In this document: piece by piece, positions 26,715 through 36,622 of the stretch
Position numbering within the stretch: position 1 is the stretch's first letter
Layout of the letters: each line of letters begins with the position of its first letter
Source: Acetatifactor sp.
GTDB taxonomy: Bacteria > Bacillota > Clostridia > Lachnospirales > Lachnospiraceae
Assembly (NCBI GenBank): GCA_024693365.1
Contig: JAILLF010000043.1
Location: 62,001-126,000 of the forward strand
DNA: 64,000 nt
Direction of reading: 5' to 3'
Made by a program: the position numbers and the translations under genes
The notes under the pieces: generated by a model
Told to the model about the DNA's origin: nothing
What the model saw: only the letters and a program-made list of their open reading frames with translations
The model's database searches: none

Positions 26715-27305
26715 ATGTTAAACACAATACTGATGATGTACGTGACCTTGATGCCTGCAATCCTTGCAGGGATTGCAAACATGGCATGGTGCAAGTCAAA
26801 GCTTCTCAAGGTCGCAAAGGTTCCCATGGATGGAGGGAAGAATTTCCTTGACGGAAAGAGGATCTTCGGTGACAACAAAACCTGGAAAGGGTTTCTTGGA
26901 TATCTGGTTTTGAACTTGATTTTTTCGCCGCTCTGGGGATTTGCATGCGGCGCAGGCGGATTTGAGCATTTAAATTTCTTTTACGTAAACCATGAGAATG
27001 CAATAGGGTTTAATCTGCTTACGGGCGTGCTTTTGGGCCTTGGTTATGCCTTGTTTGAACTGCCAAACAGTTTTTTGAAAAGGCGACTGGACGTGGAACC
27101 GGGAAAAACCATCTCAGGATTTTGGAAGGTCTTCTTTATCTTTTTGGACCAAGCAGATTCGGTATTTGGATGTGTGCTCGTGGTTTGGTTTTTTTATGAT
27201 CTTGGACTTTGGAAGTATTTGCTTTACGTGGCTGTCGGCGCGGCAACGCATCTGCTTTTAAATATGCTGTTATACTTTATGCACCTTAGAAAGAACATGT
27301 TCTGA
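26715..27305 (+). CDS. CDP-archaeol synthase-like (CarS/CdsA superfamily) CTP transferase
   Basis: NFLDGKRIFGDNKTWKGFLG motif; polytopic membrane protein. Confidence 0.8.
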   Translation: MLNTILMMYVTLMPAILAGIANMAWCKSKLLKVAKVPMDGGKNFLDGKRIFGDNKTWKGFLGYLVLNLIFSPLWGFACGAGGFEHLNFFYVNHENAIGFNLLTGVLLGLGYALFELPNSFLKRRLDVEPGKTISGFWKVFFIFLDQADSVFGCVLVVWFFYDLGLWKYLLYVAVGAATHLLLNMLLYFMHLRKNMF

Positions 27306-27323
27306 TAAGACGGAGGGCAGAAA

Positions 27324-35122: not shown

Positions 35123-35140
35123 GAAAAGAGGTTATGAAAC

Positions 35141-36622
35141 ATGGCAGGTCAGACAAATCAATTGGAATGCTTTTTGCGCAAAGCATATGAGAATTGGGGC
35201 GATCGCGAGTACTTGTTTGAAAAGAAGGAAGGCAAGTACGTTTCCGTGACGTTTGGGGAGTTCGCGGAAAGGGTAAACTGGCTGGCTGCATATCTTTTGG
35301 ATAAGGGATTTCACGGAAAGAACATTGGCATATACGGTCCTAACAGCATCGAGTGGATGATCGCAGACGGATCCATTATGTGTTACGTGGGCTGCAGCGT
35401 TGGCATATCTAAGGATTGGTCCTATGATCACGTACAATATGGCGTGAAGAAGTGTGAGATTTCCTGCCTGATCTATGATGAGCGTCAGGGAGAAAACATT
35501 GATAAGCTGAAAGCGGAATTTCCTGAAATCACTTTTCTGTCCGTTCAAAAAGATTTTGCAGAATGCTTGCGTCAAGGCAAGGAGATGACCAAGGAGCTGT
35601 TTGCGTTGGAAGCAAAAGACGAGGACGAGCCTGCGAAGGTAGTGTTCACGGGAGGAACAACGTCCTTCCCCAAGGCAGTGCTGCTTTCCGTAAGGAATGT
35701 CTTTTCCGGTTATAAGGCGCTTGGCAGAAGGGCGCCTCTCACGGAGGAGGACGTATGCTATTTGTTTCTGCCGCTTAATCACACCTATGGATCCATTTAT
35801 AATTTCCTCTATTCACTTGTCTATGGATATCAGATTTATTTAACCTATTCCATTACGGACATGGCAAAGGAGATGATGGAGATTCATCCCACCGTGTTCT
35901 CCGGCGTGCCGCTGATCTTCATGCGTTTTTACGATGCGTCAAAGGCAATGGGCATTGGGCTTGGAACATTGTTTGGTGGGCGCATGAAATATTTGTTCTG
36001 TGGCGGCGCAAAGCTTGACGCGCAGGTCAGAAACGCCTATAAGGCAGAGGGCATGTATATGATGAATGCCTACGCGCTTTCAGAGACCTCCTCCGGGTTT
36101 AGCATTGATTATCCTGGCGAGGAGGACGTGGAGAGCGTCGGGACCCTTTTCGAGGACGTTGACGCCATTGTGATCGATCCGGATGAGGAAGGTTATGGCG
36201 AACTGGCCATCAAGGGCGAGAACGTATTTAAGGGTTATTACGGTGACGAAGAGGCGACCAAGGCGGCGTTTAATGAAGATGGCTATTTCCTGACCGGCGA
36301 TATTGGCTGTATAAAGAATGGAAAAGTGTATCTGCGAGGACGCAAGGATACCAGAATCGCGCTTCCAAACGGGGAGAACGTGTCCGTGCGAGAGATCGAG
36401 CAGAGAGTCAAGGGACTGCATGAGGGCGTGACTGCCGTGAAGCTTTACCTGCATGAGGGAATGCTTGCGGCAGACGTCTTTGTCAATCCCATTAGTCTTG
36501 CCGACGATGCAAAGCTTTGGGATTCCCTCATGGGGAAACTGAATGCATCGGTCTCCAGATTCGAAAGAATTGGAAAATATAATATATACGGAAGTGACAA
36601 ACTTCGGGGGAAACTGCTCTAA
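35141..36622 (+). CDS. AMP-binding acyl-AMP/acyl-CoA ligase-like
   Basis: VVFTGGTTSFPKAVLLS, YALSETSSGF, GYFLTGDIGCIKNGKVYLRGRKD. Confidence 0.85.
   Translation: MAGQTNQLECFLRKAYENWGDREYLFEKKEGKYVSVTFGEFAERVNWLAAYLLDKGFHGKNIGIYGPNSIEWMIADGSIMCYVGCSVGISKDWSYDHVQYGVKKCEISCLIYDERQGENIDKLKAEFPEITFLSVQKDFAECLRQGKEMTKELFALEAKDEDEPAKVVFTGGTTSFPKAVLLSVRNVFSGYKALGRRAPLTEEDVCYLFLPLNHTYGSIYNFLYSLVYGYQIYLTYSITDMAKEMMEIHPTVFSGVPLIFMRFYDASKAMGIGLGTLFGGRMKYLFCGGAKLDAQVRNAYKAEGMYMMNAYALSETSSGFSIDYPGEEDVESVGTLFEDVDAIVIDPDEEGYGELAIKGENVFKGYYGDEEATKAAFNEDGYFLTGDIGCIKNGKVYLRGRKDTRIALPNGENVSVREIEQRVKGLHEGVTAVKLYLHEGMLAADVFVNPISLADDAKLWDSLMGKLNASVSRFERIGKYNIYGSDKLRGKLL

Follow-up and report, generated by a model that had tools for sequence, protein, structure and literature searches.

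Several described systems bear on the gene set considered here. Bacteria of the Fibrobacteres-Chlorobi-Bacteroidetes (FCB) group carry archaeal-type lipid genes with which geranylgeranylglyceryl phosphate (GGGP) synthase co-occurs and among which CarS is lacking (PMC7852524), and Plasmodium salvages prenols by using the prenol kinase PolK (PMC10849223). The present analysis concerns a seven-gene operon at positions 26715-36622 of a 64,000-nucleotide stretch of Acetatifactor sp. contig JAILLF010000043.1 (hereafter the window, whose numbering is used throughout). Its products are related to a CDP-lipid synthase (CarS), two RPH-like dikinases (DikA and DikB), phosphatidylserine decarboxylase (PSD), a UbiA-superfamily transferase (UbiA), a tandem-GNAT acyltransferase (GNAT) and an AMP-forming acyl ligase (AMP ligase). 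An earlier reading of the sequence had proposed that these genes form a dedicated, apparently undescribed lipid pathway. The conclusion that they represent a real, conserved and apparently undescribed lipid-biosynthesis cluster is well supported, and literature searches found no published description of the gene set. Very probably, the cluster makes a specific lipid via a CDP/serine/ethanolamine head-group route.

A conserved block of lipid-related genes

The UbiA protein of the window was the most productive probe for related loci. The NCBIfam model NF010118 was poorer: in 301 genomes of the phylum it recovered, besides the copy in the window, a single weak match. UbiA is present in 15 of 348 genomes of the family and 8 of 294 of the class, and 280 UbiA-encoding stretches were found in GTDB species-level genomes. 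Gene maps of 97 loci reveal a common order, CarS-DikA-PssA-PSD-UbiA-DikB-GNAT-(AMP ligase), in nearly every locus, with flanks that are unrelated from locus to locus. This arrangement is not due to chance, as it recurs in about 95 other loci. Conserved co-localisation, on which the original prediction was staked, is indeed observed: the genes stand together in essentially every UbiA-bearing genome, and pairwise distances computed for each of the eight genes are correlated with one another (Spearman 0.51-0.90).

Some loci depart from the common order. UbiA-DikB-GNAT-AMP ligase precedes PssA-PSD in three of them (L053, L120, L129), and DikB-GNAT stands in front in two others (L051, L052). DikB is the constant partner of UbiA and is found in every complete cluster, including the alphaproteobacterial ones. 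The PssA-like gene is missing from about a fifth of the loci, among them the window and the 98%-identical L058 and L059; because these close relatives share its absence, it does not reflect an assembly fault in the window. The seven genes, described earlier as a seven-gene operon, are a conserved set that lacks the usual eighth gene, which encodes a serine phosphatidyltransferase. In four loci of a Saccharofermentans-like group (L082, L084, L092, L099), GNAT and AMP ligase are separated by an additional gene of the GNAT type, which differs from GNAT itself and encodes about 340 aa. A mobile-element or defence reading was rejected because no UbiA homologue was found in phage or viral contigs and a PADLOC defence search gave no match.

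All family assignments made earlier are upheld by Pfam and NCBIfam. CarS matches PF01864 (59 bits against a cut-off of 22) and, in a profile search, CDP-archaeol synthase 5guf (5.8e-9); its score against the NCBIfam CDP-archaeol synthase equivalog, 74.5 bits, lies below the cut-off of 148. The PssA-like protein of the relatives is a CDP-alcohol phosphatidyltransferase that keeps its catalytic motif, and its top NCBIfam match is archaetidylserine synthase, slightly above bacterial PssA (85.6, below the cut-off of 240). Nearly all PSD relatives carry the pyruvoyl-forming GGST-type maturation motif. UbiA scores 40.1 bits against PF01040 (cut-off 34.2) and 417 bits against NF010118. Its top PDB profile match is 6m31, and its best Foldseek matches are 6m31 and 7bpu, which have the digeranylgeranylglyceryl phosphate (DGGGP) synthase fold (TM 0.65-0.71, with 15% identity to DGGGP synthase). 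UbiA comes closest to the archaeal DGGGP synthase in both sequence and structure, and its first Asp-rich motif is kept in 85 of 96 relatives.

Both dikinases fit the RPH-like plan of an ATP-grasp N-terminus and a C-terminal phospho-His domain. Specifically, each contains PPDK_N (PF01326) and, as its last domain, the phosphoenolpyruvate (PEP)-utiliser mobile domain (PF00391), and the catalytic His motif of the swiveling domain is kept in 78 of 80 DikA and 90 of 93 DikB relatives. Against the rifamycin phosphotransferase model NF041857, the two window proteins score 308.9 and 188.5 bits, short of the curated cut-off of 999. A Pfam search gave no match to the PEP-binding C-terminal domain PF02896 in either protein, and a role as PEP synthase was rejected because this domain is missing. 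The AlphaFold2 (AF2) model of GNAT (pLDDT 91.5) matches tandem GNATs, and hhalign shows homology to E. coli YghO along the length of the protein (E 1.2e-17, 316 columns); PDB searches with GNAT returned nothing useful.

Exchange of kinases and head-group genes, and probable transfer between hosts

DikA is encoded in 82 loci and a DAGK_prokar protein (DgkA) in 8, with both together in none; loci that have neither are either truncated at contig ends or belong to another type. The DgkA gene lies directly upstream of CarS or overlaps it. At least two switches between DikA and DgkA are needed on the UbiA tree, although its strongest branches alone force only one. The mutual exclusion of the two proteins suggests that they perform the same step. 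DgkA proteins of Gram-positive bacteria are undecaprenol/prenol kinases, whereas E. coli DgkA is a diacylglycerol kinase. Given these two activities, the exchanged step would be the phosphorylation of a prenol or of a lipid alcohol. The two dikinases, to which a single alcohol-phosphorylating role had been assigned, are not equivalent: DikA is exchangeable for DgkA, and DikB is obligatory with UbiA.

The head-group genes can also differ. A variant cluster, UbiA-DikB-DUF3419 (BtaA family)-membrane protein-GNAT(-AMP ligase), is found at a distant Clostridia locus (L057:8406-15251) and on a plasmid of Roseinatronobacter sp. S2 (L139:523-8507). Here the CDP head-group genes are replaced by the BtaA homologue and by the membrane protein of about 440 aa, which (at 445 aa) shows RKxxH...G and D-x-A-A-L-x-G...KSxEG motifs common to both species and appears to be dolichol/phytol-kinase-like (VTE5-like). 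The variant UbiA has about 1,100 relatives, and the named ones among its best matches are mostly Rhodobacterales. Because UbiA, DikB and GNAT (with or without the ligase) are retained while the head-group genes differ, these proteins form a core around which head-group modules are exchanged. Other plasmid dikinase matches (Streptomyces, Peptoclostridium) were set aside as lying in unrelated contexts.

Identity patterns agree that the block has apparently been transferred between lineages. The UbiA proteins of some class-level relatives outside Lachnospiraceae are nearer to that of the window (71-73%) than are those of some family members (58-64%). Three carriers titled Saccharibacteria (L115, L117, L118) have the complete eight-gene block. 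One of these three, genome G963, carries the cluster on a contig of 187 kb (C2; L224, L239-L242), and its cluster proteins share 47-71% identity with their counterparts in genome G900, compared with a median of 41% for other comparable proteins. The UppS encoded on the same contig is 73% identical to named Saccharibacteria proteins, which suggests that the block has perhaps been acquired by bacteria of the Candidate Phyla Radiation (CPR).

A candidate prenol-salvage pathway and its alternatives

GGGP synthase (PF01884) was above cut-off in none of 18 carriers; therefore the core is not built in the archaeal way, and a strict archaeal lipid pathway was rejected. Polyprenyl synthase (PF00348) is missing from 11 of 29 carriers tested, and of these 11, GcpE is missing in nine and HMG-CoA synthase in all. 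Nine carriers thus have neither polyprenyl synthase nor markers of the methylerythritol phosphate (MEP) and mevalonate routes, including G900, the only genome with a completeness figure (98%). Whole-genome reading of G900 found no IspA, UppS, Dxr, IspE, IspF, IspG or IspH and none of the genes of fatty-acid synthesis FabD/F/H/Z, PlsX and PlsC, as judged against E. coli and window-genome references, so that very divergent versions could escape; acyl carrier protein, CdsA, PlsY and peptidoglycan genes are present. This 1.2-Mb genome of the same class (L053, stretches L142-L207) encodes MraY, MurC-G, FtsW and FtsI, and the source of its undecaprenyl phosphate is unexplained given that no UppS, IspA, MEP or mevalonate genes are detectable. 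Another block occurs in a bin titled Fibrobacter succinogenes (L104) that has several polyprenyl synthase matches and is probably mixed.

Since several carriers are without isoprenoid biosynthesis, synthesis of the prenyl donor by the cell itself cannot be taken for granted. Carriers unable to make prenyl diphosphates would either scavenge prenols or use a different donor. Phytol, which derives from chlorophyll, is plentiful in the herbivore gut, and almost every carrier with an origin stated in its title comes from that habitat. For this reason, and because kinase-based prenol salvage is documented (PMC10849223), scavenging is preferred, and it would explain why paired dikinases stand beside UbiA.

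In the pathway that we propose, a prenol, probably often taken from the surroundings (e.g. phytol), would be phosphorylated by DikA, or elsewhere by DgkA or the phytol-kinase-like protein, and DikB would phosphorylate the prenyl phosphate to the diphosphate. The DGGGP-synthase-like UbiA would form an ether bond between the prenyl chain and a glycerol-type acceptor, and the AMP ligase and tandem GNAT would provide an acyl chain. CarS would turn the lipid phosphate into its CDP form, a serine phosphatidyltransferase (here encoded elsewhere in the genome) would add serine to the CDP-lipid, and PSD would decarboxylate the serine lipid to yield a phosphoethanolamine-headed membrane lipid with a non-standard core. 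The head-group half of this scheme follows known logic, and the half that builds the core may be of a new kind. Support for the scheme comes from the conserved gene content and order, the modular make-up, the exchange of kinases and the absence of known isoprenoid synthesis from several carriers.

Several points weigh against this scheme. The alcohol, the chain and the order of steps are deduced from protein families, and the enzyme substrates are predicted. Beyond the missing GGGP synthase, the second Asp motif of UbiA is replaced by ExxRKxxAPxxE. Outside G900, the lack of isoprenoid genes could stem from incomplete genomes, and the herbivore-gut link may reflect sampling. The motifs of the VTE5-like protein were read by eye only, and Pfam and PDB searches with it gave no match; moreover, if it does both phosphorylations, DikB needs another role. 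Overall, we give the prenol-salvage core, with its predicted substrates and step order, somewhat less than an even chance. The broader proposal, that bacteria, among them isoprenoid-lacking Clostridia and Saccharibacteria (CPR), use paired RPH-like dikinases to activate prenols of environmental origin, such as phytol, and make from them archaeal-like hybrid prenyl-ether/acyl phosphoethanolamine lipids, is distinctly more tentative.

The swapping of DikA for DgkA, a gene next to or overlapping CarS, also fits a scheme in which a neutral lipid alcohol, assembled by UbiA, DikB and GNAT, is phosphorylated by DikA or DgkA for use by CarS, PssA and PSD. Because the BtaA family acts on a free hydroxyl group of diacylglycerol, the core of the variant, to which a head group would be added directly, must exist as an alcohol. 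Locus L109, where a UbiA-DikB-GNAT-AMP ligase unit occurs without adjacent head-group genes, points the same way. This scheme does not account for why DikB is always paired with UbiA or for the kinase-like protein of the BtaA-type variant, and we consider it possible but doubtful. An unlikely option is that UbiA transfers a non-isoprenoid chain activated by DikB, such as an enol or alkyl phosphate, to form a non-isoprenoid ether lipid. Carriers that have neither MEP/mevalonate markers nor IspA, together with the altered second Asp motif, agree with this option, as do the dikinase relatives PigC and RedH, which catalyse condensations rather than simple phosphorylation. The retained first Asp-rich motif and the DGGGP synthase fold speak for a prenyl substrate instead, and isoprenoid-free hosts can salvage prenols, as illustrated by the Plasmodium prenol kinase (PMC10849223).

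By analogy with ceramide synthesis in bacteria, GNAT could alternatively N-acylate a lipid amine, giving either an N-acyl ethanolamine phospholipid or a core that resembles that of sphingolipids. Its homology to YghO would suit this role; a primary amine results from both head-group variants, and the ceramide route of Caulobacter also relies on a dedicated acyl-ACP synthetase together with an N-acyltransferase (PMC11324152). Nevertheless, no serine palmitoyltransferase-like gene is among the recurrent cluster genes of the approximately 95 loci, and GNAT occurs as well in loci without PssA and PSD (L045, L048), which makes this reading improbable. Finally, PSD, PssA and CarS belong to families that all serve standard phospholipid synthesis, so the operon might hold ordinary duplicates that came together by chance or for the sake of regulation, without a distinct product. 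We regard this as highly improbable: a block with two dikinases, UbiA and GNAT is conserved in hundreds of species, and the window genome encodes CdsA elsewhere as well as a separate PssA-PSD pair on contig C41 (L208:8167-9695) that is likely the standard phosphatidylethanolamine route. Because ordinary CdsA, PssA and PSD are thus available, the operon genes are not simple duplicates. The notion of a dedicated pathway therefore holds as regards conservation and distinctness, and its chemistry is a prediction.

If true, prenol salvage by this cluster would add a membrane-lipid route for abundant herbivore-gut bacteria and for some CPR bacteria, for which little or no lipid synthesis of their own is generally assumed. 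Dikinases, which are familiar from the inactivation of antibiotics and from PEP synthesis, would gain a role in lipid chemistry, and the finding would bear on how archaeal-style lipid steps reached bacteria. Existing isolates for lipidomics are Butyrivibrio sp. XPD2006 and INlla14 and Lachnospiraceae P6A3 and AC2028.

Locus layout and relation to described systems

The seven densely spaced open reading frames, whose coordinates agree with those given earlier, are separated by 18, 49, -8 (overlap 30734-30741), 6, 0 and 18 bp from first to last, and the DikB stop (34054) abuts the GTG start of GNAT (34055). The strong terminator reported before the operon is confirmed (-21.8 kcal/mol, z -5.4 against shuffles); it was recovered by hairpin folding against shuffles and not by a consensus scan. 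The promoter proposed downstream at 36669 (TTGCCA-17-TATAAT) matches the consensus at 11 of 12 positions, although such promoter-like matches are not above chance in the region (10 found, 14 expected). A hairpin scan found no convincing terminator 3' of the seventh gene.

Features of the operon and its upstream region (window positions)
Feature	Position	Strand	Basis
Rho-independent terminator of preceding gene, setting operon apart	26526..26557	+	13-pair hairpin then T8
Probable operon promoter, extended -10 TGtTATAAT, before gene 1	26666..26674	+	read by eye from sequence
CarS-like CDP-lipid synthase, 196 aa	26715..27305	+	PF01864
DikA, RPH-like dikinase, 834 aa	27324..29828	+	PF01326 + PF00391
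Phosphatidylserine decarboxylase-like protein (PSD), 287 aa	29878..30741	+	PF02666
UbiA-superfamily transferase, 299 aa	30734..31633	+	PF01040, NF010118
DikB, RPH-like dikinase, 804 aa	31640..34054	+	PF01326 + PF00391
Tandem-GNAT acyltransferase, 355 aa	34055..35122	+	AF2 model, hhalign to YghO
AMP-forming acyl-CoA/ACP ligase, 493 aa	35141..36622	+	PF00501, 188 bits

After the operon, a lipoprotein with M13 (neprilysin-like) peptidase features is encoded at 36741-38909, with its own promoter-like site upstream. Two small proteins (39068-39424 and 39825-40313) have similar Cys-rich, zinc-ribbon-like C-terminal tails (CPxCGR...C).

Among described systems, the archaeal ether-phospholipid pathway is alike in its UbiA, CarS, serine phosphatidyltransferase and decarboxylase steps, and the closest solved or curated relatives of the first three belong there. 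The cluster differs in its two dikinases, tandem GNAT and acyl ligase and in the absence of GGGP synthase from the 18 carriers, and its CarS and PssA-like proteins score under the archaeal equivalog cut-offs. The FCB bacteria have a DGGGP-synthase-like enzyme in common with it, with the pattern of GGGP synthase and CarS reversed. Caulobacter ceramide synthesis (AasR, CerS; PMC11324152) similarly places an acyl ligase and a soluble acyltransferase in one lipid cluster, whereas its serine palmitoyltransferase and CerR are absent from the window-type cluster. Betaine-lipid synthesis is represented by the BtaA homologue (DUF3419) of the alphaproteobacterial variant, with no BtaB alongside, and has no counterpart in the window cluster.

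The dikinases share with RPH and PigC/RedH an ATP-grasp domain, a large middle domain and a C-terminal phospho-His domain, yet they fall far under the curated cut-offs and are linked to lipid genes rather than to resistance or prodigiosin. The role proposed for the dikinases, from prenol to prenyl phosphate to diphosphate, is shared with the prenol salvage kinases VTE5/VTE6 and Plasmodium PolK (PMC10849223). The dikinases belong to an unrelated protein family, and a VTE5-like protein accompanies the core in the BtaA-type variant only.
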